Below are positions 7,042 through 64,000 of a DNA stretch of 64,000 bases, piece by piece. This stretch comes from Kingdonia uniflora (taxonomy: Eukaryota > Streptophyta > Magnoliopsida > Ranunculales > Circaeasteraceae), in the NCBI GenBank assembly GCA_014058105.1, contig JACGCM010000655.1, positions 2,130,501 through 2,194,500 on the forward strand. The letters are read 5' to 3'. A program made the position numbers and the translations under genes. The notes beneath the pieces were generated by a model that did not search any database, was not told where the DNA came from, and saw nothing but the letters and a program-made list of their open reading frames with translations. How positions within the stretch are numbered: the first letter of the stretch is position 1; each line of letters opens with the position of its first letter.

Positions 7042-8040
7042 TACCCTGTGCTTGATTCGGGGTTTTTAAGGAAAAGATGGCATGCACAAACCTTTAGAGA
7101 AACACCTTTGGTCCTGGCTTTTGACAACTAGCAGGCGACTTTGTAGCCTATTCCTCCTTTTAAAGGCCTAAGTTCTTTGCTAAAAAAAAAGCGCTTCAGG
7201 TATCCTAAACTACGCGGCCAACTTCACTCCACTTCTTTCGCTAAAAAAAGATGTCATTTCCCACCTATTTCTAGAAGATCATGATATGTCATTTCGCGTT
7301 TAGATCACGGCGTATTCGGGGCTTTAAGTAGCTTAAAGTAGCTTCTTTTCCACGTACGCAAGTGTCCCTCCACTTCGGTAGTTTGTAGTTTGAGGTAGCT
7401 TTCAAACTACAAGCTACCGTAGTGCCTACCGTAGTGCCCACTAGAATAGGTTCAGTAGTTTAGAGCCATTAGAGCCCTATTTTTTTAGCTCTAAAAAGGA
7501 AGGGATAGCAAGGATCCTAGCTGTAGCTGTAGCAAGAGTTGTAGTTTGGAATGTGCTGCCAAACTACAAACTATGCTACACACTTGCGTACGTGGAAAAG
7601 AGGATCCTATTTTCCATCATCAAAGAAAAGTGCTTCTAAAACACAACTACTCTTTCATACATTAGAAAACGAAAGAGTAGTTTACTTGCGATAGAAGACG
7701 AGGATCCTAAACTACGGCTTTTTTTTGACTTGCGTACGGTGGTAGTTTAGGATCCTTGCTCAGTGGTTTAGGGTGTCCAAACTACTTAACAGCTACTTTT
7801 CCACTGTAGGAATGAAATCAAACTACACGCAACTTGCGTACGTAAACTCTTATTCCACTGTAGGAGTTAAATAAAGCTACCGAATAGAAAATAGAGTAGA
7901 ATAGGTGAAGGAAGCCTTTAGAGAGAGCTTATAAAAAGTAGTTAGCGGAGGATCCTTAAAGACAAAACCGGAGGTGGCAGCAATAGAGTAGCTCTAAAGA
8001 AGGGCTTTAAAAAGAGTGAAATATGAAAGAAAAGCAGAAG

Positions 8041-8062
8041 CCTTTCAAGTATTAAAGAAAAG
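8041..8062. repeat. Empty site for the 9-bp element
   Basis: The string CC|TTTCAAGTATTAAAGAAA is uninterrupted here, with the junction between 8042 and 8043. The same string is split by GTACGCAAG 464 bases downstream, so this copy shows the uninserted state. Confidence 0.85.
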
Positions 8063-8301
8063 ACTTGCGTACGGTGATGCTGTTTTGTCTTTAGCGTTGC
8101 AAGTGCTTAAGGGCAAACTCATTGGCGGTGCTTTTGAAAGACCAACAATCACTATGTAGGGTGTCCAATTTTCCATCATCTTTTCCACTGTAAGAATGAA
8201 ATAAACGCAACTTGCGTACGTAAACTCTTATTCCACTTCGGACTTGCATACGTTTAAAACTTGCGTACGGGCAAACTCATTAGAAGCAAGAATAGGTTCT
8301 G

Positions 8302-8398
8302 AAAGACCAGAGCCCTAAACTACTGAAACTCCTAACTCTTTTAGCGTACGCAAGTCTAAATAGAAGACGAGGATCCTAAACTACAAAGAAAAGAGTGA
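8302..8398 (+). repeat. 97-bp inverted repeat, copy 1
   Basis: This block appears identical in reverse complement to 9534-9630. It contains a 9-bp element and a GGATCC module at matching positions, so both modules were present before the block was copied. Confidence 0.88.
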
Positions 8399-8505
8399 AA
8401 ATAGCAAGAAGAAGGTATTTTCTTCGTACGCAAGTAGCTTTGTAGTTTAGAAGGATCCTAATCATTGGTAGGATCCTAAACTACGTGCTAGTAGATTAGA
8501 AAGCC

Positions 8506-8514
8506 GTACGCAAG
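8506..8514 (-). mobile_element. 9-bp element in a filled site
   Basis: GTACGCAAG sits between GCC and TTTCAAGTATTAAAGAAA. The flanks otherwise match the empty site at 8041-8062, so the extra sequence is exactly 9 bp placed at C^T (A^G on the other strand). No target duplication is visible. Confidence 0.8.
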
Positions 8515-11081: not shown

Positions 11082-12394
11082 GGGCGGCTTAGAGACGGAC
11101 ACGGCCTCCTATAGGTAGTAGGATAGGGTAGGTGGTACATCGAAGTTGGAAAGAGAAGGGCTTTAGTAGTTTGTAGTTTGGACACGAGACCCACTAAACT
11201 TGCGTACGAAAAGGGCTACTGTAGGATTTTTCTATAGTGAAGCTACAGTAGTTTAGGATGATGGATAAGTAGTTTGTAGTTTGGATCCTAATCATTGGTT
11301 CTGAAGGAACTTGCATACGGTGTAATCTATGTGTAAGGTGGAGTAGTTTGTAGTTTGGAGCCATTAGAGCTTCTAAAAAGAGCGTCAGTCAAAGGCAGCA
11401 AGAAAGAAGAGATCGAATACTTGCGTACGGAGAGTAGTTTAGCGGCTCAAACAAGAGGCCAAGGAGGACTGGCAGGCCGGCTATGGCCCCTACGTTGCTA
11501 CGACACTACTAGGTCCCTCGCTTATTCATACAACCCGGTCCAGTCTAACTAGGCCTCATCTTTGAGCGACGCCGACGAAGGAAAAAGCCTTGCCAAATAA
11601 AAGGCTCTTCTTTCTTCAGCACACCGCTCGCTTACGCTTCTCAAAAAACTGGTTGCCAATCTTTCCTAACCGCGCCTAGATCAAAGGCTAGGTTTTTTTG
11701 TAGTTTAGGAGCGCGTGAAACTCATCACTACCTCGTAAGGGGGTTGAGACCATAGCATGTGACACGAAAGCACCGCTTGAAATGACAGAACAACAAGCAG
11801 CCCGCCTAGAAGAGCGACTCGCTCCTCCGTGTTGTCACACAAGATAAGCACGCCGCCCTCGGCCCTATGCTGGCCGGGCGAATCAAAGTTCTCTTCCGGT
11901 CAACTGTCCACCCAGTCAAGTGCCAAAAACTCAGTGGAATCGCGCTTGGCACGCAGCTGGTGTGCTTCCTGCCGACGAGGAAAGAAAGAAGAGCGACAAG
12001 GCTTGGATTTGACTGCTTGCAGCAACAGTTGGGGAGCTGATGACCCAAAGAATCCCTGGGAACAACTGAAAAAGAAGATATCTCGGTCACTGTCACTATA
12101 TCGGGGCTGTATTGGCGAGATCCTGCGGTGAACAGCTGACCCAACAACCGCCAGGAAGTCCGAGGACCTTTAGTACCCTTAAAGCAGTCAAACCAGCAGC
12201 GAAAGCGCTAACGAAGGAAGACCGCCCTTGTCCACTCACCCTCACCTTTGCAGCGGTCCGGTCTCCAACACGTAGTCCCGATACACAGCGGAAAAGCGCT
12301 ACTTTTCCGCGTACGTAAGTGTTCTTTAATCAAACTATTCTAAAAGAAAGCTAAAGAAAGCTACCTACCCCTCTAAACTACTACTCCTACAGTG

Positions 12395-16321: not shown

Positions 16322-16972
16322 AGAGCACTTTTTTCGTCGAGACTTCTGCGTTCCCCTTCGTGTGACTCTTCCAGGTGAATTGACAACCTAGCCGCTCCTT
16401 ACCTTACGTCACTCAAACTCTTTGAGCGCCCCAATCTTCTCCAACGCTAATCAAGCTCTATCACTCGGGTTTTTTGGGGGGATCAAGAGACCTTCTGCAT
16501 TAAGGATAGCTGACGCGCCTTCATAGCGACAGAGCGAGAAGATTCAACCGAACTTGCGTACGGCGTCTTGGTGTTGGCTAGTCGAAGTTGAGTGGCCTCA
16601 AAAGCTAGCTTTTCCCGCACCTCCGAAACCTTTAGCGCGCTAGTCGCTAAAAAAAAAAACAATGTCTGTTGAGTCGGGGCCTGGCTCCCTTCTTTTGAGC
16701 GGGCTCTCGAGCCCATAAGATAAGAAAACCCCCTTCCCCCATCAATCAAAGGGGCTCCCCCAAAGCACACTCATAGCCTCCAAAAAAACCAGCGAAAGGA
16801 ATAGCCAAAACTGTAGTTTGGCGCAAGATTTGCTTTCAAACTACGTGCTCTTTAAAGGTCCTCTAGCTACTTCTGCCGAAACCAGAGTTTGGACTGCGTC
16901 GCCTTTCCAACATTTGGTGCGGCGAGTTCAAAGCTAATCAAAGTGCCGGGGCCTCAGCTCTCTTTTGACTCT
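16322..16972 (+). other. nad2: Expanded domain VI of nad2i709
   Basis: AGAGCA at 16322-16327 pairs with TG-CTCT at 16966-16972, leaving an unpaired A at 16968, 7 nt before exon 4. The loop between the arms is about 640 bp. It has at least one 9-bp element (near 16553) and no recognised gene. The short stem makes this less secure than the nad2i542 case. Confidence 0.55.
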
Positions 16973-16974
16973 AG

Positions 16975-17735
16975 ATATGTGGGCACCTGATATCTATGAG
17001 GGTTCACCCACCCCGGTGACAGCATTCTCTTCTATTGCGCCTAAAATATCGATTTCTGCAAGTATGCTACGTCTTTCTATCTATAGTGCGTATGGAGCGA
17101 CCTTGCAACATCTCTTCTTTTTCTGCAGCATTGCTTCCATGATCTTAGGCGCACTGGCCGCCATGGCCCAAACGAAAGTCAAAAGACTTCTAGCTCATAG
17201 TTCGATTGGACATGTAGGTTATATTCGTACCGGTTTCTCGTGCGGAACCATAGAAGGCATTCAAGCGCTACTCATTGGTCTCTTCATTTATGCATCAACG
17301 ACGATAGGTGCCTTTGCCGTAGTTCTAGCATGTAGGCAAAGCCGTATCAAGTACATCGCAGATTTGGGCGCTCTAGCCAAAACCAATCCTCTTTCGGCTA
17401 TGACCTTCGCCATCACCATGTTCTCATACGCAGGAATCCCCCCTTTAGCCGGCTTTGGTAGCAAATTCTACTTGTTCTTCGCCGCTTTGGGTTGTGGGGC
17501 TTACTTCCTAGCCACTGTGGGAATACTGACTAGCGTGGTAGGTTGCTTTTATTACCTACGCTTAGCGAAAAGAATGTTCTTTGATACACCGCGAACCTGG
17601 ATTCTCTATGAACCAATGGATCGTAACAAGTCCTTACTACTAGCAATGACCTCTTCCTTCATTACTTCATCCTTTCCATACCCCTCGCCCTTGTTCTCAG
17701 CCACTCATCTAATGGCACTCAGTTCATATCTTTAA
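16975..17735 (+). CDS. nad2: NADH dehydrogenase subunit 2, exons 4 and 5 fused
   Basis: This is the C-terminal half of complex I subunit NAD2. It opens with AT completing a His codon split by nad2i709, then MWAPDIYEGSPTPVTAF, and ends MALSSYL with stop TAA at 17733-17735. The 761 bp equal the Arabidopsis exon 4 (573) plus exon 5 (188). Frame and residues run without a break through the nad2i1282 site at about GCFYYLRL, so that intron is missing. The tail SSFP stands where LFFL is expected, and other Ser/Thr/Ala replacements suggest unedited C-to-U sites in the gene. Candidate editing codons survive close downstream of the fused junction. Several residues, such as LACRQSRIKY, also differ from flowering plants. 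No repeat module interrupts it. Confidence 0.96.
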
Positions 17736-21227: not shown

Positions 21228-22492
21228 ATGACTGGTTTTACCTTACCTTTCGATTTTCTTTCTTTTGAGCACATAGCTGTTTTAAACTACTCATTTTTTT
21301 TGGTCTAACCCATCTTGTGAAGTAGTTGGAGGACTTGCGCAAAAAAAAAACCCTTCGCTTACCTAGCACATGCCACTTCATCCGTCACAAGTAATGTCTA
21401 AAAGTTATGTGCATGAGTTAGGTCTTAGTCTTTAGTATTCAGAAGTCAAAAGCCACGCTCCTAAAAAAAACGATAGCTATAGAAAAACAAAAGCCGGAGA
21501 AATCCTACCGGTGTTTTTTTAGAAAGCTGCGGGTTTCTTTTTTAATCGGAGTGATGTTGCTAAATCGGGTCGGATCCAGGTTCTAATCAATGCGAACCTA
21601 AGTCACTCTTATGTCTCTGATGACGGACGAAAGATCCCGGCTTTAGCAAATAGCTCCTTTATCTTTTATTTCCACAGCAAATAGCTCCACGCTCCTTTAT
21701 CTTTTATTCAAACCCACTACGTACTATGCAAAATGGACTGGTGACTTGTCTTTGGTCCGCTCAAGGATAGGTAGTTGCCTAAAATATACATTACGGCTTT
21801 AAAAAGCCGGACTTGCGTACGTTTAAAAGGATAAGGCCGCCTACAGTGGAATAAGAGTTTACGTACGCAAGTTGCGTTGTTTTCAGGACGTAGTTTGGAC
21901 ACCCTACAGCCTTTCTTTTGGAGGTGGGAGTCAGTAAAAGAATAGTGAAGGATCCTTTTTCTCTTTTATTACCCATTTTAAAGCGAAAACCCTCCAGTAG
22001 GCTATCTTGCTTGGTGTGGGACTAAAATGCGTTTTGCTTTCAAACTACGTGCTGCAAAGCGCGGCTTTTGACAACGAAAAGAAAACTCGAAGAAGAGTAG
22101 GGGCTCGGTGGGGGGGGGCACCATAGCATGTCGGGAATCAGGGGGGACATACTGGACGTGACCACCCCCTCTAAGGCTCTACCGCCCTTCCTTTCTATCG
22201 ATACAGAGTTGAGGAGGCCGCCTCGAACGCTTCTTTTGGAGGAAGCCTTTCAAGTATGAAAGAAGTAGCTAGAGGATCCTAAACTACAAATAAAATGAAA
22301 GAAGCCAGTAGTTTTAGAGCTATTTTTTAACACACTTGCGTACTTTTTGTTGAAAAGGGTGTCCAAACTACAAACTACTTAACAGCTACTTAACAGCTAC
22401 AAACTACTTAACAGCTACTTTTCCATCATCACGCAACTTGCGTACGTAAACTCTTATTCCACTGTAGGAGTTAAATAAGCTTTAAAAAGGGG

Positions 22493-25500: not shown

Positions 25501-26732
25501 AGTATTCTATTAGTGTGCTGCCAATGATGAAGCGATAGCGAGCCCATCCATAACCCCACCTTCCTACCTCTAAGCTGCTAAAAATAGCGTTTTCCTTTTT
25601 TTAAGACCGACCTACCCGTTATAGACATTACCCCACTACGCTTTCCTTTTTAAAGGACCGACCCTACCATCACGAGTGGTACCTTGTCCTAAAAAAAACA
25701 CCTGTATAGGATGCTGGAGTGGATTTTCAAACTATCTTTCCTTGCTGTTCCATCGTGCTTTCTTGCTCTGAGTCAGAGACATAAGAGTGGCTTAGTAGGG
25801 AGAACCTTAACCTTAGTAGGGAGAACATAGATCCGATCCTATTTTGTCTTCTATCTTAGCAACATAGCTACAGCGTAGTTTAGAAAAAAAAAAATGCTTT
25901 TCTTCGTTGAGTGTGTTTTTGGAGCTATACAAGAGCTAATAACGACGGTTTGGTAAAAAAAAAAAAAATAGCAAAGGCATTAGAATTCTAAAAAAACACC
26001 GGTGCGTTCCTAACTACTTTTGATGAGGATAGTTTGCTGCGTGCATTTCCATCTCGCTTTCTAGTACTGGTCCTTGAAAGACTGCGAAAGCCTCTTTTTT
26101 TAAACTCCACACAACTCAAAAAAGAAACTCTTTCTTGAGGATCCTTGCTGGGCTTTAAATAGATGATGGAAAATAGGAGCTTTAAAGAGCATTAAAGAGT
26201 AGCCTTTAAAAGAAGGCATTAAGGAAAAGAGGTAGCCGTACGTAAGTTTCAAGTATTAAAGAAGTAGCTAGAGGATCCTATTTTCCATCATCTTTTCCAT
26301 CATCAAAGAAAATAACTTTTAAAAAGAGTAAGGTGACTTGTGAGCTACTTGACTCCGGCTTTTGGCGAAGACTAGAGTTTTTTTTTAGGGAAATAAAAGA
26401 CAACGAAATTTCCCAAGGTGGCGGGATTCCTCCGAAAAGCGTCAGCTAGGTGAGTTTTGATTAGCCGCCCAGGCCAAAACACACCGGGACAAAAAGTAGT
26501 TGGGGGAAGAAGAGGCCTAATGAAAAGGCTAGGTATGCCTTAGACTTGAGTGGCAAAGGGAAAGTGAGACCTATCTCCGTACGCAAGTTTTCCAGGCCTG
26601 TTCGGACATGGGTACCAGACACTAAGCCTTATGATAGAGTGGAGACTTGGGGCGCTGACGCTCTTCTCTTTTGTGGGTTTTCCTATCATGTTTTTTGCTA
26701 GGATCAAATCCCGGCACGTAGTTTGAAAGCAA

Positions 26733-26944: not shown

Positions 26945-27993
26945 TAGGATGCTAGGCCTGCCTCTAGCTACTAAATAGCGAAAAAGGGTCTCTAACCTTT
27001 AGAGCGCCCTACCTCAGGAGCCATTGTTTTTGTAGTTTAGGGGGCCCCGAAGATTAGCCTAGTTTTGCGTACGCAAGTTCGAAGCGTTAGCTCTCAAAAA
27101 AGGCTATATGCAAGCCCACTATGAAAGAAATTGATCCACTTGATGACACGCTCGGAGTAGGTTTAGGCTACCTCAGGAGCCATTCGCGCGTTGAAAATGG
27201 CTCCTAACAGTTGGACGTAGTTCGTTACGCCTTCGAAGGCGTAAAGAAATCCTTTCTTCGTACGCAAGTCCACCAGTAGGTCCTTCCAAATCTTCTCCAA
27301 ACAGTAGGTCCTTCCAAAGGCGGTCTAAACTACTTTTTGAAATACACAAAGCCACAAAAAAGTAGCTAGCGAAAGAAACTCCGTTGATTTAGGGACCAGC
27401 GCTGTCTAATGAGTTTGCCCATGTAGCTCTTTTCCACCTCTTTTCTTTAATACCTCTTTTCTTTAGCTTTTCTGTAATGTATATTTCATCCGGTTTTTTT
27501 GATTCTGTTACTCCAATGATGATGGATTTTCCATATGTCCTATTTTCAACAAAAAGTACGCAAGTGTAGGATTTTTCCATAGTGAAACTACACGCAACTT
27601 GCGTACGTAAACTCTTATTCGTAGTTTAGTACGCAAGTGTAGGATTTTTCTAAGGATCCTCAGAAGGCTTTTCCGTAATGTATATTTCATCTCTTTTACT
27701 CCGGCAGCACATTCCTAACCCTCTTTTACTCCTACACTTGCGTACGTGGAATAAGAGTTTACGTACGCAAGTTGCGTTGTTAAGTAGTTTGTTAGTAGTT
27801 TGTAGCTGTAGTGGAATAAGAGTTCGTGTTTTTGTTAAGTAGTTTGGACACCCTTTTCAACAAAAAGTACGCAAGTGTGTTAAAAAATAGCCGTAATGTA
27901 TATTTTAGGCAACTACCTCCGGTGTCCACCGTTCCCTCTAGTTTAGCCTCTGTCTAGAGGTGCTAGAGGTGTCATGTCCGTAGTCAAGTTGGT

Positions 27994-28030: not shown

Positions 28031-28411
28031 GAGCACTATTCGCGAATGAGAGGTTCAAAAAAAAACCACATCATGGCATGCAAAAGGCGAGCGTTGGGTG
28101 TGTTGTTTTAAAAGCAGTACATTCCATCATCTTTTCTACCCAGTGAGCCAAAGAGACTTGCAGCGCTCCGCCGCCCACTACGAGCTAACGGAGCTTTTGG
28201 TCTTGCCTGGCTTTTACTTGCGTCCGTCAAAAGGAGTCCTAAACTACAACTACGCTTCGCTTCTGTCGTCAAAGCTATGCAGCGTAGTTTAGGATCAGAT
28301 CAAAGACATCTCCTCAACGTTTTTGCGCTACGCTTCCACGCTCCTCAACGCTTTTGCGCTACGCTTCCATGTTGTGGACCGAGCCTTGTTCTCATCATTC
28401 ACTTCTGACTC
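28031..28411 (+). other. nad5: Expanded domain VI of nad5i230
   Basis: GAGCA at 28031-28035 pairs with TG-CTC at 28406-28411, leaving A28408 unpaired 7 nt before exon 2. The loop of about 370 bp holds modules and a tandem duplication of a CCTCAACG unit at about 28313-28372. The pairing register matches that of nad2i709. Confidence 0.58.
28313..28372. repeat. Tandem duplication upstream of nad5 exon 2
   Basis: CTCCTCAACG(T/C)TTTTGCGC is followed by TACGCTTCCA in both copies, period about 32 bp. It lies in the domain VI loop and extends the nad5 frame upstream of the true exon border. Confidence 0.85.
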
Positions 28412-28414
28412 CGT

Positions 28415-29660
28415 GTTCGATAGCCCGACCGTAGTGATGTTAGTTGTGGTGACGTCCATAAGTAGCTTGGTCCATCTTTACTCCATAGCATACATGTCGG
28501 AGGATCCGCACAGCCCGCGCTTTCTTTCTTACTTGTCTATTTTTACCTTTTTTATGCTTATGCTGGTTACAGGGGAGAACTTTATGATCTTATTCCTTGG
28601 ATGGGAGGGAGTCGGTCTTGCTTCCTACTTGCTCATTCATTTCTGGTTTACACGACTTCAGGCAGATAAAGCAGCAACAAAAGCTATGCCTGTCAATCGA
28701 GTAGGTGATTTAGGATTAGCTCCAGGGATCTTCGGTCTTTTCACTCTCTTTCAAACCGTAGACTTTTCAACCATTTTTGCTCGTGCGTCTGTTTTTCCAC
28801 TGTGTGAGCTCAATGGCGCTTTAAAAAGCCCTTCCTGGATTTTTCGCAATATGAGAGTGGATGCCATCACGCTGGTTTGTATTTTACTTCTTATTGGCGC
28901 TGCTGGGAAATCTGCACAGATAGGATCGCATACTTGGTCACCTGATGCCATGGAGGGCCCCACTCCAGTATCCGCTTCGATTCATGCAGCGACCATGGTC
29001 ACAGCAGGCGTTTTCATGATAGCTCGGTGCTCCCCTTTATTTGAATACCCACCTACGGCTTTGATTGTGATCACTTCTGCAGGAGCTACGACGTCATTCC
29101 TTGCCGCAACCACAGGAATCTTACAGAACGATTCAAAGAGGGTCATAGCTTATTCCACCTGCAGTCAACTAGGCTATATGATCTTTGCTTGCGGCATCTC
29201 CAACTATTCGGTCGGCGTCTTTCACTTGATGAATCACGCCTTTTTCAAAGCCCTACTCTTCCTGAGTGCAGGTTCGGTCATTCATGCCATGTCGGATGAG
29301 CAAGATATGCGTAAGATGGGGGGACTTGCCTCTTCGCTCCCTTTCACCTATGCCATGATGCTCCTGGGCAGCTTCTCTCTCATTGGATTTCCTTTTCCAA
29401 CCGGATTCTATTCCAAAGATGTCATCTTAGAGCTTGCTTACACAAAGTATACCATCAGCGGGAACTTTGCTTTCTGGCTGGGAAGTGTCTCTGTCCTTTT
29501 CACCTCTTATTACTCCTTTCGTTCACTCTTTCTCACCTTTCTTGTCCCTACTAATTCATTCGGGCGAGACATCAGTATAGGTCATGATGCGCCTCTTCCT
29601 ATGGCCATTCCTTTAATCCTTTTGGCTTTCGGGAGTCTCTTTGTAGGATACCTGGCCAAA
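28415..29660 (+). CDS. nad5: NADH dehydrogenase subunit 5, exon 2
   Basis: This is the central antiporter-like core of complex I NAD5. The exon begins with G completing a Leu codon split by nad5i230, continues [18 protein letters not shown], and ends LFVGYLAK followed by the intron boundary GTGTG. Conserved blocks include [40 protein letters not shown] and [18 protein letters not shown]. At 1,246 bp it is 30 bp longer than Arabidopsis exon 2; the extra ten codons lie at about 28790-28830. Ser and Pro in [19 protein letters not shown] and PFPTGF stand where Leu is needed, which implies many editing sites. The frame is intact. Exon 3 is not seen downstream, so completion in trans is expected. 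Confidence 0.96.
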
Positions 29661-30320
29661 GTGTGACCCGTTAGCCCATAAGTCAGTGACGAAGCGGCTC
29701 TTGCTTACCCAACACGATCATACGAGGTCTCATTTTCCATCATAGAAAATAAACTTGATCTACGTACGCAAGTCAAAAAAGAAAAGCTTGGAGTACTTGC
29801 GTGCGTGGAAAAGAACAAGAATTGGGGATCGGATGCGGGCGAAATTCCCGCCAATGACTGAGATGTGCAGTCGACTCCCTCCCCTTTTCCGGACTACAGC
29901 AACCGGAGAGTGAGCAGAAAAGGGAGGAGGAAAGAGGCCCTGGTGAAACGCGTGAACAAGTGTAAGCTTCGCTGCCCGACAGTATGACGTACTGACCACA
30001 CCGAGGGACAGGCCCTGAAGCGAAGGACGGGAACGAGCGGATTCAAGTCGTCCTCTTTCTGGCCTGGCAACGACACCATCCAACGGGCTCTGGACTAAAA
30101 GGCCACTGTCTGAAAGGACTAGGTCCAGGGGTGTGCCACCGCCGCTCTCCCACACAAGGTACATCTTGCGCCTATGGGCCACTATCACTATCCAAGAAGA
30201 CACTCGAAACTGGAAAAAGAAAGAAACCTGACCGTCTGAGACATGTGCATGCATACTTCAGTGACAAGTCCTACGACACAGGAGCGGGATTCTCCAAAAA
30301 GCCAAGGCTACGTCTAAAAC
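29661..30320 (+). other. nad5: Trans intron nad5i1455, 5' half
   Basis: The sequence immediately after exon 2 begins GTGTGACCCG, a good group II 5' end. nad5i1455 is trans-spliced in seed plants, because the 22-nt exon 3 lies elsewhere. The GC-rich, largely module-poor stretch at 29820-30250 is probably intron domains I to III. The downstream limit is a guess, set where dispersed modules resume. Open frames here on both strands (for example 29760-30254) show no family and are likely fortuitous. Confidence 0.65.
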
Positions 30321-33023
30321 CTAGGCATACGCTTTTAAGTAGTTTAGGGGTCCGTAGTTTAGAGGTCAAACGCAAAGTAGCACGTAGTTTGAAAGCAAAA
30401 CGCATTTTAGTCCCACACCAAGCCGAGGTTTAGCGGCTTTACCAGCAATAAATCACCCTTGATTTCGCGCGTCTAAAACCTGGGCATACGCTCCAAACTA
30501 CCGGGGTCCAAGTTGGAAAAGTAGTTAGAGGTAAAAAAAAGTAGTTAGGTAGTTTAGCAGCACGTAGTTTGAAAGCAAAACGCATTTTAGTCCCACACCA
30601 AGCAAGTGTAGTTTAGAAGGATCCTCGTACGCAAGTAAACTACTCTTTCGTTTTCTAATGGGATTTTTTTTTAGCGGCTTTAAAAGGAGCCCCCCTAACT
30701 ACCCTTTTAAAGTGTCCACCTCCAAAAGAAAAGAGTTCTAACTCTTTTCTACAATGCTTATCTTTTGAAACTCTTAACTCTTATTTAACGTCCTTTTTAG
30801 ACTTGCGTACGCTAAAAGAGTTAGGAGTTTCAGTAGTTTAGGGCTCTTTTCTTTTGAACCTATTCTTGCTTCTACATACATTACCACTACCTTAGTAGTT
30901 GTAGTTGCCAACTCATTAGGCCACAACTACAACTCCTTGACTCTGGCTCTAATGGCTCTTTTGAACCTATTCTTTTGCTTCAGACACCCTTTTTGGTTGT
31001 AGACTTACGTAGTTTAGGATCCTAGAAAAAAAAAACAACTACTGGCTTTCTTTTAGCGTACGCAAGTCTAATCTTTTAGACTTGCGTACGCTGAACCTTA
31101 TCTTGTTTTTTTCATATAGATGGATAAACCTAGCTCTTTTCTTTAGCACAGTGGAAAATAGGATCCTATTTTCCATCATCCTAAACTACTCTTTTTGCGG
31201 CTCTTTTCCTTAGCGCTTCCAAACTACAAACTACGTGCTCCAAACTACAAACTACGTACCTTCTTATAGCTTTAGCAACCAAAGCCATAACTCCTTCGGC
31301 TTACTTTCTTTCGCCCCGAGGTCGGACACCAGCGCCTGGGGGTTATGAGCGTCTATCTTTCCAAAGCAAACAGCTAACTTTCGCGGCTTTAAAAGGGATC
31401 TATTTCTTACTAACTAAGCTATTTGCTAAAGATTTCCCGGATAAATAGTGGATGATGGAAAATAGGATCCAAACTACAAACTACGTAATGCTTTTCCGTA
31501 CACGGAATTTGGCTAGAATCGAATAGCTTGACTGCAATTTCTTAGTGGTCATGTCCATAATGCTATTGGCTAGGATTAGGAGCAAACACCAGCACTAGTA
31601 AGAGTCGGAGCTATGTTGCTAAAAACTCCTAGCGCAAAAAACGCTCCATCTTACGCTAAACTACTCTTTCATCAGCGTACGCAAGTGCTATTTTTTCTTG
31701 CGGGGAAAAAGGGTTGAGTTACTTTTGCCTATAGGTCCTGATGAAAGTTTCGCCAGGATCCTTCTGAGGTCTACTCCATGCAAAGTAGTTTAGGGGCTTT
31801 GGTAGAAAAAACACGGCTTTTTTTCTTTTCATTTTGGCGCTTTAAAAAAAGACGACGCGAAGAGGTAGCCGTACGTAAGTTTCAAGTATTAAAGAAGTAG
31901 CTAGAGTATCCTAAACTACAAAGAAAAAAAGAGTAGTTTAGAGCGTACGCAAGTTTCAAAAAAAAAGCTTAAAAAAAAAAGCCAGAAGCCATAGTTTTTT
32001 TGTGCTAGAAAAGGTAGGATCCTTGTACGCAAGTTAAAAAACAACCCAGCGTAGTTTTTTTAAAATAGCAGCTGATGAAAGAGTAGTTTAGCGTAAGATG
32101 GAGCGTTTTTCGCGGATGCATTGGAGCTATTCTTTAAAAAGTTACGAACCTCCAAACTACAAACTACAAAAAACTGGAGGCAAGAGAAAAAATATACATT
32201 ACGCGCAAAAGTTGCCTGTAGGAAGCCGAAGGATCCTTAGTAGTTTAGAGCCATTAGAGCCATTTTTTCACTGTACGCAAGTAAGTAAAAATAAAAGTGA
32301 TGATGGAAAAATATACATTACGGTGTCCAAACTACTTAACAAAAACACGAACTCTTATTCCACTACAGCTACAAACTACTGTCTTTCATATAATCCACGT
32401 ACGCAAGTGTAGGATTTTTCCATAGTGAAACTACTTTCAAAACTTGCGTACAACTTGCGTACGTAAACTCTTATTCCACTGGTAGTTTAGGAGTGAAATA
32501 AAGGGGTTTAAAAGAGTAAGACAAAGTGATGAACCTCTGGCTGCCTTCGCCTATCGGCTCACTAACTCCACCTCCGGTGCTTTTGATTCCTAGCTTTAGC
32601 AACCCTAACAGAATTTCACTCCGGCTTCCACTAGCACACCCTAGCTTTAGCAACTCCACCTTAACCCTTTTCGTACGCAAGTTTAGTGGGTCTCGTGTCC
32701 AAACTACAAACTACCTAGTAGGCTATTCTTTGACTGTTTTTCTTTATTGTGCGTTTTTGCTTTCAAACTACGTGCTCCTCCTTGCTTTTGAGGCCTAGCT
32801 TTTTCGATCAACAAGAAGGACGAGAAGCAGGTCGCTAGGTCTAAAGGTTGAGACTGAGTACAAAGGCTCAACGTCCACAAGGGCTCTTTTTCATTGCTTT
32901 TTTTAGCCTATCGAAAAGCTAGTAGTGAGCATCGGGTAATAGTGAGCAGCGAGCGGGGCCGCATACTCACGCTTTGCCACCTCAGCCCTTGCTAACAACA
33001 TATAGCTCGAGGCTAGGACGCGC

Positions 33024-34725: not shown

Positions 34726-36200
34726 AAAAGTGGGCCATCCCAAGGAAGGCTGTTTTTCATGGCCCTTTCTCAATCTGTTTTAAATGCGAAGGTATCTGTT
34801 TTAAATGCAAAGGTATCTGATGCAAAGGTATGAAACCCTCCCTCTGAATGTCCCTTTGCTTTGAAGGCTAGGAACTCCAAAGCAAAAGAAGGATTTCCAT
34901 CGGTGTGCTAGCGTAAGGAAGGATCCTCAACTGATGAATCCTAAACACCGACTAGCGTTCCTTTTTAGACATTGGCGCTTACCTACAATAAGGAAAAGAG
35001 CTAGAACAAAAAAAAACCTCAACTCCCAAGGTAAAGGCCATAGTTAAAAAAAAAGCAAGGATCCTAAGAAGCAAAAGAATAGGCCTTTCAAGTATTAGGC
35101 CACTCCTTTCAAAGAATTCAGAAAAGACTTGCGTACGGTGAGCAAAAAGGGTATGGGTTTTTTAGGGCATCGGAGAGTGGGGGTCACAAGTCAAGCCTTT
35201 CCTTTTCTTTTAGACCTCAAGACCTCCTACAGCTATTGGGCTTAATCAAAACAACTCATGCTCTTTTCCGTAATGTATATTTAATCTTGTTTTTTGTAGC
35301 TTAGGGACAAAAAACCTATACTTAGCCAGTGCACTCTCTGGAGTTTCAAAAGGAACCTCGAAGCGCACTCGCATTCATTCTATGGCTCTTTCTTGCTCTT
35401 CCTCTAGGCTCAGAAGCTGTTAGTCTACAAACTTCCAACGCTTCGATGCATGCACCCCCAAAACCCTATGCGAACAAGAAAATCCGGGGATCTCAGGCCA
35501 GGTCTTTCGGCGTAATGTCTATTTTATCCGCGAAAAGCAAAAAAAAGCATAGCGGGGCTTGGTAAATCGCATAAAGAAATAAAAAGGGGCTTGGTAAATC
35601 GCATCGCATATAGTTAGGGGCAAGAATCCACTGAGAGACATTCACGCTACATATGGGTTTAAAAAGGGGGGGCAACTGATAGACATTCACACTACTGATA
35701 GACATTCACACTACATATGGGTTTAAAAAGGAGCAAGAATCAACTGATAGACAGACTACTATGAAAGCCGCCGTAACTCGTCGTCTAGGGCCTGTTTAAA
35801 AAGGGGACTTCTGGGCCCAGGACTAGAAAGCAAAGCAAGACGCGCCTATCTTCTTTCTTTGACTATTCTGGTACGCATCGAAGTTGGTTGGTCCGCATCG
35901 AAGTTGGTTAAGGGCGCTTTTCAACAAAAAGTACGCAAGTGATGATGGAAAAATATACATTACGGTGTCCTTTTAACAGCTACAAACTACTTTTACGCAA
36001 CTTGCGTACGTAAACTCTTATTCCATCATCTGTCTTTAAACTACTATCCACGTACGCAAGTTTGAAAGACAGATGGTGGATAGTAGTTTGTAGTTTGGAC
36101 ACGAGACCCACTAAACTTGCGTACGAAAAGAGACGATGGATAAAAGGAAGCGATAGAAAAGCGCGACTTGCGTACGTGAAAAGCAAGATAAGTAGATTGA

Positions 36201-39200
36201 GAAGAAGTGGGCTAGGTAGCCGTACGTAAGTTTCAAGTAGCTCAGACTTGCGTACGGTGGGAGTTAGAGGGCGTCATTATTTTCCACTGTAGGAATGAAA
36301 TAGTAGAAGGACTTGCGTACGTTAAAAAGAGTAAGAGTGAAATAAGAGCTAGGCTCAATCTGAGCTATTTTTTCATAAAAAAGAAGGATTGCGCTGGTGG
36401 GGCCTATCGCGTCTTAGACTTTCTATCTTTCGTATCTTCTGGCTTACACCTACTGGAGCACCTGAAAAAAAAGCGGCTATCGTTTGTCAAAAAGGGGTGA
36501 TCCATTGAATCGTCTCCAAACTACCTAAGCTACTTGGTTGCTACTTGTTTTAAAAGCGGCTATCAACGGAAGGGGTGATCCTTAGTTCTAGATTGAATCG
36601 TCCCCAAACTACCTAAGCTACTTGGTTGCTACTTGATCATGTGTGCCTATGTCTTGATATCTATAGCTATTCGCTACTCGCCTTTTCCTTTCAATGCTTT
36701 CAATGCCTTAGACCGGGCGAACCTCAGCCCTACCTATAGCGCAAGGTCCCCGACGCATACGCTTTGCTCGCCCCTACCTTCGAAGAGTAGTTAGAGACCT
36801 CATCTGACTATAAAGGCGTAACCACACACAATACATACAAGAAGTCTCCCAACTAAGACTCGCTCGTTCCAGTCAAGGGCTGGTGCTGACAAGGAAAGAA
36901 ATCCAATAGCAGATATAGGGGATGGCTTCATGCTTCTCTTCCCATGGTCAAAACCACTGGTGTGTTGCAGGCAATAGGTGGGGAACTAGGTAAGTGGCCT
37001 AAACTACGCATCGATCTCTAACTGCTTGCTTGGGCATTGCCATGGGATTCGTGTACGGCCTTTTCTTCGCATTGGTCATTTACTTACCACTTATGCAACC
37101 TTCTTTTTTAAGCACACCACTGAAAAAAAAAAACCTTCGCTCTGCGTAATGTATATTTTTTGCTACACACAAAACCTTGTTGCTACACCCCGAGGCAACA
37201 ATTAGCCACCCTAAAAACCTCTTTTAAAACGCGCTCTTGAGTTCACATTCAAAACGGGCACCCGAAGGTAAGATGGTGTTATACCTTCTACGGGCGCTAA
37301 GAAAGATAGATGAAGAAAAAGACCTCAAAAAACCTTGGCTTGGCGTACGCAAGTCCGCTGCTGAGGTAGCGCTTTCTAAACTACGCTGCTAAGGTAACGC
37401 GTAGGACCGCGGTTTTTTAACGGGGGGGTTAAATAAGAGTAAGAAACGATAGATCTTTTCTTTTAGAACTTGCGTACGGGGATAGGGGTGTGTTTTGGTC
37501 CAGCCTATAGTCCGCAGATGGGAAGCGTGATCGGCGTACGCAAGTAAAAGCCAAAAGAGCTAGCAGTGTGTTGTTGATAGGAATACCAAAGGATTAGACT
37601 CGATCTAGGCCTAATCAGTCTTCAGCCGCACTCTGCGTTGTCTTCTAAACTACTAAAGCCGGAGAAAAGAAAAAGAAAAGAATAGGGCTTTTCTGATTAA
37701 GAGAAAGCGTCAGACTGACGCTTAGACCAATGATCAGATCCCTACGAGGCGACGCTGGCACTAGGTTCGATACGAGCTACCGCTTTGAAATGAAAACCTT
37801 TTGACGTAGTTTTAGGAAGCTAGAGTGAAATAAGGGTTAAGGGAGAATACCCAGTAGTTTAGGAAGCCTTTCAAAAACGCAGAGGGCTTTAGTAGTTTAG
37901 GGGTTAAATAAGCTTTAAAAATGGAAGACGGAGTAGTGTTGGTCCTTTTTTAGAGGTAGTTTGGACACGAGACCCACTAAACTTGCGTACGAAAAGGGCT
38001 TAAAAGACGCACTCTAAACTTTTCCGCTCTTTCGTCGTACGCAAGTTTCTTTGTACGCAAGTTTTGGCAAATAGCCGGTCCTACCTGCACTAGAATTAGG
38101 TCTCGGTTGGTCTTTCTTGAGGAAATCCATCGAAAGCAATACACCCCCTTCTGGCTCACTTAGCTCCACTAGTAGTTTAGAAAGCTAGCTCAGAATGATG
38201 CCTTATCTTGCTCACTTCGCAGGTCTTTTCTTTATTAACAACGACCAATTATCCACCGTCTAGAAGGCAACCTAACTGAAGACTCTGTTTTATCCACCTT
38301 GCTGGATTTCAACCAATGCTTCTAAACTACTACAGCTATGATTGAGAGCCAACTCCTAAAGGTACGGAAAAGGTGAGCAATTAAGACCTAAATAGGTGAT
38401 ACAAATGAGACCACAAGGTGCACACTTCGAATACAACCCAATCCTTAGAACAAAAAGTAGCTGATATCGAACGTAGATGAGCTAAATAGGATCCAAAAAA
38501 AAACAACAAGAGATACCCCAAGATACAGCTGCAACCAGAGCCAAGGATCCTTCCGTAAGCAAGCAAAACGCACAAGTCGCCAACAATTGGCAATTTTAGT
38601 CCCACACCAAGCCGAGGTAGCCGGTAGTTTGGAAGCCGTACGCAAGTTTCAAGTAGCTCAGAATAGACATTACGGTGAGAGTAAAATAAAAATAGAGCCC
38701 AAATGGCTGGGGTAGGGTTTTCTTTTAGGAGCACGAGTTAGAAGGTAGTTTGGAGGATCCTGAGTAGTTAGTCTTTCAAAGTGGATAAAGAGCCATTAGT
38801 GCTTCAGCCATTGTAGTTTGGGAGGATCCTATTTTCTTTCGTTGGAAAAAGCCATCCGGATAAATAGTGGTAGTTTAGGATCCTCGTAAAGGCATTAGGG
38901 TGTTTTCCAAAGCCATTAGCGCCTTTCGTAGTTTAGTAGCTCAGAGTTTCAAAAAAGGTAGTTTGTAGTTTGGAGTTTGCTAAAGGCTCCTAAACTACTC
39001 AAATAGCTCAGAGTGAAATAAGGACTTGGAGAGGCGCGATGAACCAGCACTAGTGTCGTTAGCAAGACGCGCTCTAAACCACAAACCACTCTTTAGCCAC
39101 CGTATTTCGCAAGCTAGTCGCTATTCCCGAAATAAAGAAAATACCTACCTCATGAAAAAAAAGAAAGGGCCCCAAAATAAGGAAAAGACCTACCTCTAAA

Positions 39201-41954: not shown

Positions 41955-44900
41955 GCAGCCCCCAAAGCTTTAGCCCCGACTTCAGCATGGCGACTAGAAC
42001 AAGGACAAGGGCTTTCAAAAAAAGAAACAAAAGAGTTTAAAGGTAGTTTAGCAAAAGAATAGGTTCAGTAGTTTAGAGCTTGCGCAAGCCAAGGATCCTA
42101 TTTTGTCTTTATAGCTAGAAGGTAGTTTGGAAGCCGGACTTGCGTACGTTAAAAAGGGTTACCCGTACGCAAGTTCATGGGTTACCGGAGGGCTTTAGTA
42201 GTTTAGGACTTGCGTACGTTAAAAAGAGTTGCTAAAGCTCCGGGTGCTATTTTTTAACAGACTTGCGTACGTTTAAAAGGGCTGAGGCTTTAAGAAGATT
42301 AAAGAGTAGTTTAGGAGCGATTTTAAAATAGCTACGCAAGTGGGAGCCCCTAAACTACTTAAACCCTCGGTTCGCTCATTGACTGAGCTGCCATTATCAC
42401 ATAGAGTGTCTTCGTATCCCGGCCATCTCTCACTTTCTGGTCTAAAGACAAAAGGAGTGTCGCGTCGTAGCCTATTGCCCCAAGTCCTTCATTCCCCCAA
42501 CTAAAGAAACTCCCGGCTCTTTTTTTTCAAAAGTAGGACCCACTGCCCGAGAAGAGTATGAGTAGACGCCTCTAAACTGCTCTTTCAATCTTTGTTCCCG
42601 CGCCGAAGAGACCGGTTCTTTGACGAGTTTAAAAGGGCCTAGACAAATAAGGACAAGCAATAGATCGCCCTATACTTATTGCCTCATCTGGCACGGAGCT
42701 CTCACAAGTTCTACCTATGACACGAAAGGGTTGTCTTTTTGTTGTGGAAACTGAAGGATCCTAGCGAGCTGCTGCCGACGCGGAAACTGAATGCAAACAA
42801 CAAGATGGAAAAAGCGTCGCCTAACCCAGATTCAACACGCCGCACCTTTGGTTCGTCTAAGGCTTGAATAGCTACTTGTGCCGCCGAAAAAGCTTTGACT
42901 TGCGTACGAGGAAAAAGCTAGGACTCGTAGTAGGTTTGTCTCTACCATGCTCTAGGCTAAGATCAAAGACATCTAGGCTAAGATCAAAGACATCTTCCGC
43001 TAAACATTGACCAAAGACAAGGGAAAATCCAAAACAGAGGCCCCTAACTGCTGAGAGAGGTGGGAGCCTAAACCTATAGAAGCAAAATAATAGGTAGGAT
43101 CCTAAACAACTTGCGTACGGTGAAAAAGAGCTAGCGTACTAGAGTTAGCGTCCTTTTAAAGTTTGAAAAGGGTCAGAGATGCGGAAAGGGAATCGACAGA
43201 CTTGCGTACGGAGATTTAGAAAGGGAATCGAATCGACGGAGTTCGCGCTTAGGGACTCTTAGGAGGAGAGATTGAACGCTTAGGTAGCCGTACGTAAGTT
43301 TAAAGAGACTTGCGTACGTTTAAAAGAGACGGTGGATAAGACTCAACTTGTTGTTTGCATTCAATGGAGGAGATGCTTAGGTAGCCGAAGGTTTCAAGTA
43401 TTAAAGAGTAGTTTAGAGCTTGCGCAAGCCAGAATCGCCGGTTATCCATTGACGGAGTGAAATAAGGGTCAGAGATGCGGAAAAGGAATCGCCGGACTTG
43501 CGTACGGAGATTGAACGCTTAGGGCTTTCCCTTCTTTGCTAGGTATCCGGAAAAGGTAGTTTAGCAGCACGAAGTCACTCCCTAGAGCTAGTCCAATCGG
43601 TGAGGATCCTAGCGCTATTTCTTCACCCTTCTTTGCCAGGTATCCGGAAAAGGTAGTTTAGCAGCACGAAGCCAGTCCCTATTCGGGAGAAGGTAAGCTT
43701 GTCCATGATGATCTGTCCTAAGCCCAAACCTATAGCACAAGTAGCGGGTATGCCGATTGTCGCATAGAGAAGTCCATGAAAACCCATATAGATAGGGGTC
43801 TTTTTTTAGAAGAACTTGCGTACGGTGAGTCTGATCCAGCAAGTATTGGCTACGTTCTAAGCTAAGATGAAGATGGCAACCAATCTGAAGACCAACACTT
43901 CTGGGATGAGAGCAAGCAAAGCGAAAGTAACTTCTTCTGACCTTCTTTCCTTTCCCGTAGTTTTGGAATGCTCCTTAACTACCCTCACTTCTCACTCACC
44001 GCCTCCAAACTACCTCAGTTGACTTAGCCTAATCGCCGCAGAGATCTGCTCTCTTATCCACCGTCTACTTACTGGACTACTGCTACACTACCTATTTTCG
44101 TCCTACTAAACTACTTGGTCTAACCTTAAATAGGAAGGCTTAACTACTAGACCTTTCGCTGGTTTAAGTGGGGCATGCTGCTTCCCTTCTTTCTTTGATC
44201 ATAACACCTGTGTGCTGCAGCGTAGTAAGGGGGTAGTAAGGGGTTTGCTTCCAAACTACAACTACTGCTTCCACCATAGGGTGCGTGGTTAGCGTTAAAA
44301 AAATAGTTTAGAGTGCTTGTTCTAGAGGCGCTAACTAGCCAGGATCCTTCTTACCTTTACTAATTAGGTCATGCTTCTCTCTTTCTGGTTAGGAGTCTTT
44401 CTAAACTACGGCATGCTGCTTCCCTTCTTTCTTTGATCATAGCACCTGTGTGCTGCTTTTAAAGAGAGGAGAAGAAGAGCGTAACCTGTGATGTACTGGA
44501 GCAAGAGGAGAAGAGGAGCGTAACCTGTGATGTGCTGGAGATAGCTAAAAAAAACCCGCGTGGCCTTTCTTTCACACTACGTGAAGGTCTAGTCTCACTC
44601 AGAATTGGCCAAGGCTGCTTTTGGACAAGTATGCTTGATCATCGATTCAGAAGTTGGAAGGACCGGACTTCGTCGACTGTGTTTTAGAGCGCGTCTGTAG
44701 CACACTGATAGAGTAGTACCTATGGCTTCTGGCCCCGCCCCCCCGGCTCGAACACACCCCTAGCTCATGTCTCATTCTTAGGCTACCTCCTTCGTCTTTA
44801 CTCTAGCTCAATCTACTTATCTTGCTTCTGCTTTTCCGTACGCAAGTTAGATCTTTAATCCTTATTGTTAGGCGCTACTTTTCCGCTTACCTTATTTTGC

Positions 44901-50300: not shown

Positions 50301-52554
50301 TCCACCATTGGTCCTTCCTTTCTTTACTATGTTAGAATACACAGCCGAGATGTAGAGTGGTGCTTCCAAAAAAAGGATCCTCGTCTTGCTTCTACTTTGC
50401 TTCCAAAACACAGGATCCTCGTCTTGCTTATACTTCTAGTTCAGAAAGAAAAACTGGTAGAGCTGCTTCTCGCTGAGTCCATTATGGTTGGGACGGGCAC
50501 TCCCGGTTTTGACCTTCCTTCGCCGTACGCAAGTCTTCAGTATAAGGGATGGGCTTCATAGTCTGATGTATTGGATAGCACAGCACAGCAGACTCACTGC
50601 TACTGCTGTATTGGATAGTGGCGAGTCTTATGTATTATGTATTGGATAGCAGTGATCTATCTCTTTTTTTTGAGAGGCCTGCGCATTAGAGGTTGGCTTT
50701 TGGCTTCTCCGGACTATTCTTCGTACTGGACAGGGCTGGACTGAACTTGCGTACGGTGATATCGGTTGAGTTCAAGCTTGACATTGTTTTCTAAACTACG
50801 CTGATCGTAGTTTAAGAAGCGCGTTTTCTAAACTACGCTGGTTTTTGAGGACTTTAAATAGAACTTGCGTACGACGAGGTGTAGCAAAGAAAAGAAGGTG
50901 GAAAAGACCAATGGTCCAAAGTTTAGCGCGCGAAAGTGTTTAAAACAACCGGGGAAAATGAGACCAACCTCTGGCTGCCATTCGTAGCGCCGATCTAAGG
51001 TAGTTTAGGATCCTCGTACGCAAGTTTTTTGAAAGTTTAGTCTTGGAAAGAAATAGCTCCAACCTTTAACGATACTTGCGTACTTTTTGTTGAAAGTAGT
51101 TAGAGCACGATTTCTAAACTACGCTGTGTGTTGCAAAAGTCACTCAACCGGAAGTTGGGACTCTCATTAGGAGCGCACTTCTCCTTCTTTTTCACTCCTC
51201 GCTTAGGTGCTCTGGTAGTGGGTTTGGTTCATAGCTCTCTTACAGATGGGATTGGGATCGAAGAGGATGCTTGTAGATCAGCGAAGATTGCTAAAGAGTA
51301 GACTCTCGCTTCCGGAGCTGCGGAAAGACGTTTTTTTTTTCGGGCTACATCCATCGTAGAACTCGAACAAAATAAAAACTTGCGTACGGAGATCCCACAT
51401 AGTCCCGCCTGCTACATAGGTTAAACACGGCCTTAGTCTATCTACTATAGGTTCACTATCAAGGCCGATCACGCCTAGTTAGTCTTTAAACTGTAAGAGA
51501 GAAAAGAGTCGAGTTTTCATCCCGCCAATGTTTTGACGCTTCGGCTGCACGGAGATAATCTGACCGATCAGCGCTCTATGCTGCAGCCACTCCCATGCTT
51601 CCATCTATGGCTGATCTGCCAACATGACCACTACTACTATGAGAGGCTATTCTGCTCTCTATCACCGTAGTCGGCGCGATTCGGATCTCATGGCGGTCTG
51701 CACATTGTATTTCAAGAGCTACTATAGCTCGGCCACACCTCTAGGTGGGACTTTCTCTACTAGGAAGTGTCGTGTTATGTCCTTCCTACTCGCTCTATAC
51801 TTCTTCATTGTCGCTTCAACCATAGCGCCTACTGGTGGGTCTCTCAGAAAACCATCTCCGTGCGCAGGCTGTGAAGTTCTAGCTAGGATCCTCTTTATCT
51901 AATATGCAGGCTGTGTCAAGTGAAGTTCTATCTATCCCTTTTTTAATACCACCTCGTCGTACGCAAGTTCTATTTAAAGCACTATAGACATGACCTAGTC
52001 TTCTATTTAAAGCACTAAGCTACGGCGCACTATAAGACATGACCTAGTCTTCTATTTAAAGCACTATAGACATGTTTTCAGAAGTTCGCTAAGAAGTAGC
52101 TAGCGGCATGGTTTTTTTTTGTCTAGCAGTCTTTTGGATTTCGTCATTGGGGTGGGCAAGTAATGTCTATAGTCGCTCACGTACCAGACCACTATGAAAG
52201 AATCTCGGATGAAAGACCAACAATGCACAGAAGAAAAGAGCAGTGCCAACTTTCTTTTAGGGCAGCAGGACGACTATATCCCTACCATTCTCTTCGGCTT
52301 TAAAGCAGAGGCCAACCGCTAACTTGCGGGAAAGGACGAGAATATAGGCCGGCACGCTCTCAGATAGGAAGCGAATGGAATCAATGGCAAGTTAGAGAGC
52401 ACCCCCCAATCCGATACCAAGAAGAAAGGAGCGGGTAGCTAATAAAGCGGTGGGTTGGGTCCTACCCCATCTCAGCTTTGTCCTTCTTTTCCACCTAAAA
52501 CACGCTAGTTCGAATCTGATCGTTCCCGCCCTACACGCAATGAGACTCACACAA

Positions 52555-52675: not shown

Positions 52676-52775
52676 GGATTTTGGCCTGAGGTTGTCTAAC
52701 TACTGTGGAGCATTCATATTCTCAATCGAAGTCCAACGTTGGTTGTTCGTAATATGACGCCAGAAGAAGCATGGA

Positions 52776-52784
52776 CTTGCGTAC
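52776..52784 (+). mobile_element. 9-bp element inside copia relic (1)
   Basis: CTTGCGTAC splits the codon after EEAW. Removing it leaves AGT, the Ser expected before Gly-Asn-Lys-Pro in this family. The site is therefore A^GT and the insertion is in frame. Confidence 0.8.
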
Positions 52785-52862
52785 GTGGAAATAAGCCTAG
52801 TGTTGCTCATTTAAGAGTTTTTGGATGCCTAGCCTATGCACATATTCCTGAAAAGAGAACTA

Positions 52863-52871
52863 CTTGCGTAC
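52863..52871 (+). mobile_element. 9-bp element inside copia relic (2)
   Basis: CTTGCGTAC lies at a point where the reading frame changes between AHIPEKR and KKLDNKG. The exact pre-insertion sequence is not clear here, and extra bases downstream may belong to another event. Confidence 0.65.
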
Positions 52872-52978
52872 GCGGAAGAAGCTCGACAATAAGGGAGTGA
52901 AGTGCGTTTTTAGCGGCCTTAGTCATCACTCAAAGGCGTATAAGCTGTATAACCTCGTGACTGGAAAGATTATCATCA

Positions 52979-52987
52979 CTTGCGTAC
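52979..52987 (+). mobile_element. 9-bp element inside copia relic (3)
   Basis: CTTGCGTAC lies directly before RDVVFDEE. Removing it leaves AGT, the Ser normally preceding Arg-Asp-Val-Val in copia pol. This is an in-frame insertion at A^GT. Confidence 0.82.
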
Positions 52988-63628: not shown

Positions 63629-64000
63629 GATTCTGACTTCCAAGGAGCTTACCCAGCCTTCGATCTTTGTACGCAAGTCGACAAGTTTTTGAAAAGAGTC
63701 TTGATCTTCCGGGATTCTCTGAACCTCCTACCAGGGAGTCTAGCTGAGTTGGCCAAGACTTTCTGCCCCGAATTGGGTGTGAAGGGAGAATTTAAGCATG
63801 AAGAAGTGACGGTGGCGACGATAGAAAAGCAGAAAGAGCCATTGCTTGCCTACTTGCGCCAAGATATTAGGCTTTTGGCTGGTGTCGTGCAGCGAGCTCA
63901 AGACCTTTTTTGGGAAAAGTATCGAGTTGACATCACTTCGTGTTTAACCCTTTCAGCCCTCGCCATGCTCATCTTTCGAGCCAGATTCTATAAAGAGAAA
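63629..64000 (+). pseudogene. dpo: Linear-plasmid family-B DNA polymerase fragment, runs off window
   Basis: The open frame from 63629 to the window end encodes the end of the exonuclease domain of a protein-primed family-B DNA polymerase, as found on linear mitochondrial plasmids. Visible segments are LIFRDSLNLLPGSLAELAK, then CPELG, then LLAYLRQDIRLL with the Exo III Y-x3-D pattern, and LTLSALAMLIFRARFYKEK. A stop at 63626-63628 cuts the frame upstream, and no Exo I or Exo II motif is visible. It therefore looks like an integrated, truncated copy. A 9-bp element sits in frame at 63669-63677. The polymerase domain would lie beyond the window and may or may not be intact. Confidence 0.88.
63669..63677 (-). 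mobile_element. 9-bp element inside dpo fragment
   Basis: GTACGCAAG interrupts the polymerase frame without shifting it. The flanking bases here are T and T rather than C and T, so the target differs by one base from the A^G rule. Confidence 0.65.

Follow-up and report, generated by a model that had tools for sequence, protein, structure and literature searches.

The window, that is the whole stretch of DNA analysed here, is 64 kb long and covers positions 2130501-2194500 of a contig of 2,494,347 bp (C196) in an assembly of 1.0 Gb. Plant-type mitochondrial genes are found on this contig, nad2 and nad5 in the window and cox2 elsewhere; their matches are solved mitochondrial chains, the best of which are presumably plant chains. 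The window also contains two group II intron matches, one tRNA match, and fragments of a copia pol gene and of an organellar DNA polymerase B gene (dpo) (Table 1). We take this DNA to be plant mitochondrial.

Scattered through the window is the 9-bp sequence CTTGCGTAC (unit 1), with 202 copies, 112 on the plus and 90 on the minus strand, against 0.41 expected from a first-order Markov model; only 29 further strings differ from it by one mismatch. The commonest variant is CTTACGTAC, a C-to-T change as read on the GTACGCAAG strand, with 11 sites in the window and 25 in a second, separate data set consisting of C196:1-200000. That data set has 518 sites of unit 1, so that a unit of ~10 bp reaches an unexpectedly high copy number in mtDNA (202 per 64 kb, 518 per 200 kb). 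In the whole assembly, the pattern ACTTGCGTACGNNRA, which places the unit in a strict context, has 7873 matches versus 16 for the reversed pattern; among the matches listed some lie off C196, often in clusters. The nad2 and nad5 reading frames of the window hold no copy of the 9-mer, where 6.8 would be expected (P ~0.001).

The unit is strongly conserved as a whole. In the strict context A...GNNRA there are 496 exact copies and 25 with a single substitution, with neither one-base deletions nor inner one-base insertions; in a looser context (A before, G after) the shortened strings ACTTGCGTAG, ACTTGCGTG and ACTTGCGG occur 2, 6 and 3 times. By inspection CTTGCGTAC has no terminal inverted repeats, its only palindromic part being CGTACG, next base included; four strings were folded and none gave a stable hairpin, and a hairpin reading of the unit was rejected on this ground. 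A viral collection queried with nad5 and copia yielded no relatives, and a pattern with 17 set bases found in it only three loci with one 9-mer apiece, which we take as chance.

Table 1. Positions in the window of genes, units and filled or empty targets.
Positions	Strand	Feature	Basis
8040..8060	+	Empty site GCCTTTCAAGTATTAAAGAAA, junction 8042/8043	sequence match
8506..8514	-	Unit 1 in ACTTGAAA^GGC core; GTACGCAAG on +, CTTGCGTAC on -	sequence match
16938..17732	+	nad2 exon sequence, unit-free	sequence matches
22248..22255	-	ACTTGAAA of empty copy, junction 22247/22248	
26238..26246	-	Variant CTTACGTAC (GTACGTAAG variant) in ACTTGAAA^GGC core	
27737..27745	+	Filled by unit 1; empty near 12392(+), 7847(-), 22451(-)	
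28293..29663	+	nad5 exon sequence, unit-free	sequence matches
31677..31685	-	Filled by unit 1; empty at 23625/23626 (-) and 32070/32071 (+)	
31871..31879	-	Variant CTTACGTAC (GTACGTAAG variant) in ACTTGAAA^GGC core	
35086..35093	-	ACTTGAAA of empty copy, junction 35085/35086; beyond ACTTGAAA only GGC common	
36247..36255	+	Unit 1; same target empty at 56879/56880, with 11-bp unit at 38663	
38663..38673	+	Unit 2 (ATAGACATTAC) at target also seen at 36247	
43290..43298	-	CTTACGTAC; same target with unit 2 at 61066	
50864..50872	+	Filled by unit 1; empty near 60584(+)	
52700..53232	+	copia pol fragments, two frames (PF25597)	Pfam match
52776..52784	+	Unit 1 within copia fragment; aligned relatives without the 3 residues 10/10	
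52863..52871	+	Unit 1 near frame change of copia match	
52979..52987	+	Unit 1 within copia SH3-like domain; covering relatives without the 3 residues 3/3	
54833..54843	-	Unit 2 at target holding unit 1 on C196 near 190617	
61066..61076	-	Unit 2 (ATATACATTAC) at target also seen at 43290	
63629..63999	+	Organellar DNA polymerase B fragment (PF03175)	Pfam match
63669..63677	-	Unit 1 in dpo-like reading frame	

Filled and empty sites and their target

The initial annotation had described one locus as intact at 8041 and split by the 9-mer at 8506-8514. The empty site is present on the plus strand, its true start being one base to the left, and GTACGCAAG was found at the filled site exactly as given; the further empty copies that had been placed near 22250 and 35085, and those filled with the variant near 26243 and 31870, were also recovered (Table 1). 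The two members of the 8040/8506 pair are alike over 21 bp on one side and over only ~5 bp on the GCC side, and therefore do not provide the best proof of insertion. Better pairs are the filled site at 31677(-) compared with 23614(-) and 32071(+), where the right flank is alike over 40 bp, and C196:190822(-) compared with window position 720, where the flanks agree at 25/25 and 23/24 bases.

Some observations concern the surroundings of this locus. In the assembly the module GCCTTTCAAGTATTAAAGAAA is present in 53 exact copies, in differing surroundings (L004, L005, L006, L008, L009), and three loci on other contigs that bear it have no exact 9-mer within 3 kb. One of these three, L006, a locus of 38% GC, has near its position 1554 a degenerate unit, CTTGTGTAC, preceded by A and followed by GAAGAA; old mitochondrial DNA copied into the nucleus would be expected to look like this. 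At window position 43392 (-) the ACTTGAAA^GGC target holds the 5-bp string CCTTC instead of the unit.

We have studied the exactness of the gain by several approaches. A gap scan for inserted strings of 4-25 bp, in which the 9 bases of the left flank had to match exactly and the 9 of the right flank nearly so, and from which low-complexity flanks and adjacent tandem copies were excluded, returned 2469 strings, with CTTGCGTAC at the top with 8 distinct contexts and runners-up with 6. The flanks of all 202 window sites were also collapsed after removal of the 9-mer, as the initial annotation had proposed, and uninterrupted copies were found for 14 of them at 9 bp and offset 0, versus 5 of 2000 random cuts. 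In the same length-by-offset grid the other removed lengths (5-8 and 10-13 bp) gave 0 to 7 of 202, and shifted 9-bp cuts gave up to 11/202, the latter scoring as well because one mismatch per side was allowed. The junctions of the 14 empty copies are A^G in 11 cases and A^A in 3. When the window and C196:1-200000 were searched jointly the peak was again at 9 bp and offset 0, with 42/518 sites in the contig set and 21/202 in the window, while random cuts gave 9/1500 and 11/1500, respectively, and removal of 6-8 or 10-12 bp at most 8/518 and 6/202. Under a stricter definition of homology (both flanks scoring >=14) an empty copy could be recognized for 5/761 unit sites, with A^G (3), A^C (1) and A^A (1) junctions; the controls were 0/2283 for random sites and, out of 761, 0, 1 and 0 when 8, 10 and 12 bp were removed. 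Targets homologous to filled sites of either unit 1 or the 11-bp unit described below were in the length-0 state in 78 cases, as compared with 6 to 21 cases for any other single length from 1 to 25. Gapped self-BLAST, a method too insensitive for this purpose, returned two 9-bp inserts.

Overall, the earlier claim of an exact 9-bp gain without duplication, mostly at A^G, holds both in the window and in the separate 200 kb. Homology between paired sites extends over short distances, the shorter flank often matching for 10-25 bp, and this counts against the reading preferred below. The presence and absence of the unit at otherwise matching sites was seen at paralogous positions inside one genome, from which we infer that the unit is probably mobile.

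Junction bases were tabulated, again following the initial annotation, over 611 distinct contexts from 264 kb (the window plus C196:1-200000). The base before the unit is A in 99% of them and the base after it G in 91%; two nearly free positions follow (0.12 and 0.02 bits), then G (66%) or A (21%; 87% together) at +4, A (85%) at +5, and A at the next two positions (55% and 52%). The full pattern A^GNNRA is present in 430/554 A^G contexts, as compared with 6432/43325 AG dinucleotides of the same DNA that read AG..RA. The target thus extends beyond A^G to GNNRA, a feature missed in the initial annotation. The variant CTTACGTAC departs from a single target rule, with T rather than R at +4 in 72% of 18 contexts. 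The junction bases occur once in both filled and empty copies, and hence there is no target-site duplication of the kind that marks DNA transposons, MITE-like elements included.

An unrelated 11-bp sequence, ATATACATTAC (unit 2), which the initial annotation had likewise missed, has 33 copies in the window; A before and G after are found in 27/29 of its distinct contexts, and A at +5 in 20/27. A related form, ATAGACATTAC, has A^G in only 4/10 window contexts, and for both forms over the 264 kb (109 contexts; A 78, G 78, A at +5 76) the preference is weaker than for unit 1. Empty copies of unit 2 in the window numbered 0/33 in one test and 1/33 in the joint search; in C196:1-200000 they were found for 7/52 sites at 11 bp, as well as for 7 at each of two neighbouring offsets and for up to 5 when 13-14 bp were removed. 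With looser criteria the proposed boundary scored 18/43, and shifted boundaries 2 to 15. Three targets were found with either unit (36247/38663/56880; 43290/61066/7909; C196:190617 with window 54833), two of them also in the empty state, with 2-3 mismatches in 18.

Reading frames that contain the unit

Since filled and empty pairs by themselves give no direction, we compared the reading frames that contain the unit with their relatives. A conserved protein domain is interrupted by it in the copia fragment and in the cox2 frame. The Pfam match of the former extends for 51 residues over 48 profile positions, and no solved structure matched this fragment. At both in-frame copia sites of Table 1 every relative that covers the position is devoid of the three residues (at 52979 protein P0002 was aligned, while P0012 and P0013 were judged by eye), so the two sites were empty before the unit arrived. 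The initial annotation had derived insertion from the copia and dpo sites together: the copia part is supported, whereas the dpo site was dropped as proof of direction, because the relatives fetched leave insertion versus deletion unsettled at that stretch.

The cox2 frame lies on the same contig (L014:3975-5279, minus strand) and has 435 residues, of which 44-255 align with chain 7jro_b, which we take to be the COX2 chain of mung bean. The unit is in frame at residues 102-104, where this closest solved chain has a three-residue gap; of five printed COX2 alignments, two show a gap of three at this point and the others of four or five, which indicates a loop of variable length. On these alignments the site agrees with insertion as the direction. 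The frame stops short of the usual C-terminal part, perhaps located beyond an intron, and for this reason we make no claim of a working copy; beyond the conserved part it remains open for another ~180 codons. A second frame of L014 (1718-2968, minus strand) contains two units and looks ccmF-like by eye; Pfam gave no match for it, only for an overlapping frame.

Mechanism of insertion and alternatives

These results can be interpreted in terms of an ultra-short, non-autonomous mobile unit that is generated by nuclease-directed insertion of a fixed short cargo at RA^GNNRA sites, a reading to which we assign a probability of roughly 0.55. It is very probable that CTTGCGTAC is a discrete inserted unit, while on the involvement of a nuclease and a cargo the odds appear evenly balanced. 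According to this scheme, a mitochondrial nuclease with a preference for R-A^G-N-N-R-A-A sites would break the DNA at A^G; the break would take up a fixed-length cargo, by joining or by copying, and the filled form would then spread through mitochondrial recombination. We prefer as putative donor an RNA or DNA oligonucleotide, as in a model of target-primed copying; candidate forms of it would be 9-nt and 11-nt species, or RNAs with GUACGCAAG at an end. The use of a like target by the unrelated ATATACATTAC suggests that it is the cutting step, rather than the cargo, that determines the site. The free NN between the fixed G and RA, and the targets common to two unrelated cargos, suggest that a protein recognizes the target, and the near absence of shortened copies speaks against frequent premature termination; it is for these reasons that a nuclease combined with a short, defined donor is preferred. 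A broader version, in which the machinery would insert fixed-length short cargos of any sequence at RA^GNNRA, with the 9- and 11-bp units sharing targets and many thousands of insertions made, including in-frame ones in core genes, is put forward only tentatively.

The richness of this genome in shuffled short repeats makes template switching, or gene conversion, the main rival, although we consider it unlikely. A broken or stalled strand ending in RA would anneal to an existing copy, copy 9 bp and return at G; the flank rule would then derive from homology to the donor, with no need for a site-specific enzyme. Most possible donor copies do carry the A and GNNRA flanks, and the many short modules in unrelated surroundings suggest that short-homology recombination is active. 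However, the two nearly free bases between the conserved G and RA look like the mark of a protein, an unrelated 11-bp unit has similar flanks, and the 9 bp are gained without neighbouring bases. The same short repeats might instead be shuffled as modules, with the 9-mer as an optional linker and the empty copies as independent joins, in keeping with the scatter of GCCTTTCAAGTATTAAAGAAA and with the many pairs alike for only ~10 bp on one side. This seems improbable, since the gain is of 9 bp and not of 8 or 10, and the same 9 bp interrupt the frames of copia and cox2, neither of which is a module of this type.

The near-perfect conservation of the unit is what a selected signal for transcription, uptake or recombination, arisen by point mutation, would also display, and the CGTA core recalls plant mitochondrial promoter motifs; nonetheless exact insertion into otherwise matching DNA does not support a signal, orientation bias is small and copies occur inside coding frames, so that the promoter and uptake-signal readings were rejected and we regard selection of this type as very improbable. 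Even less weight can be given to an artefact of assembly or sequencing: the evidence does come from one assembly only, but the target rule is strict across hundreds of distinct contexts, the reversed control is nearly absent, and nad2 and nad5 are free of the unit. Precise deletion of an ancestral 9-mer, compatible with filled and empty pairs taken alone, is contradicted at both copia sites and is the least credible explanation of all; the closest solved COX2 chain is likewise devoid of the residues.

Known short elements and other repeated words

The closest precedent is the 11-bp MUSE1 of Podospora, which escaped the initial annotation; there the unit had been compared with the 36-bp Bpu elements of Cycas. 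According to Koll et al. in 1996, the MUSEs of Podospora reportedly comprise several unrelated elements per genome and include insertion into a conserved protein. The string CGCAAG is common to our unit and to what we take to be the MUSE1 sequence, which may be chance; words of 9 to 11 bp contain too little information to bear on common descent. To our knowledge, the movement of ultra-short mitochondrial elements has been an open question since their description in fungi. The byps of Magnusiomyces mitochondria are also short mobile inserts within mitochondrial genes, bypassed in translation; unlike our unit, they are longer.

In the portions of the sources available, MUSE1 is given as 11 bp with >100 copies (PMC7218506), and MUSEs are described as invasive (PMC7272585). 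The present unit shares with them the mitochondrial location, the size of ~10 bp and the high copy number; it differs in its plant host, in being 9 rather than 11 bp long, in its thousands of copies, and in a target rule, A^GNNRA, read here from 611 contexts. Of the GC clusters of yeast, excerpts of PMC4478555 state that GC42 is a palindrome of 42 nt, that a direct repeat, AG or ACT, borders the clusters on both sides, and that an RNA-mediated route is suspected. As far as these excerpts go, the clusters resemble our unit as short mobile mitochondrial sequences with presence/absence sites and an AG-type target, whereas the unit has 9 bp, no duplication of AG, no stable hairpin and nothing of a GC-rich palindrome. 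For Bpu, the part of PMC8297867 at hand describes 36 bp with terminal AAGG direct repeats, and counts of 486 and 504 in two Cycas, 19 in Ginkgo and 0 in the three other gymnosperms of its table; on that description, both are present in plant mitochondria in hundreds of near-identical short copies, but the unit is only 9 bp long, lacks direct repeats and is not a Bpu element. An AG is a recurrent feature of the targets or termini of the MUSE, GC-cluster and Bpu elements, and also of the target of the 9-bp unit. A literature search for the words of the unit or for a comparable plant element retrieved nothing relevant by titles and abstract openings; as subscription papers were mostly outside its coverage, this does not prove novelty.

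If our main reading were true, 9 bp would be the minimum size of mobile DNA units, a precise target rule would be available for testing the mechanism, and giant plant mitogenomes would have a concrete route for gaining DNA; thousands of natural copies and two cargos are available for comparison. If, as we suggest with less confidence, the cargo can be any sequence of fixed length, this would be a class of mobility for which the target, rather than the element, is the defining feature.

Other short words are also frequent in the window. AGGATCCT and GTAGTTTAG occur at 116 and 163 sites, often adjoining, and one of the two is a perfect palindrome; they were rejected as units of the same kind because A^GNNRA is not the rule at their flanks and their empty matches are few. 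With 9 and 12 boundaries tested, respectively, each had an empty match for 13 sites, one exact (15434, a 7-bp cut within AGGATCCT) and the rest with 1-2 mismatches, while with one boundary the same test gave 19/202 for CTTGCGTAC, 4/11 for CTTACGTAC and 0/33 for ATATACATTAC. Finally, a repeat family at 12383-12577, 15142-15334, 22314-22471 and 27730-27906, whose members are ~76-90% alike with many small gaps, is rich in CTTAACAGCTAC and CAAACTAC words.
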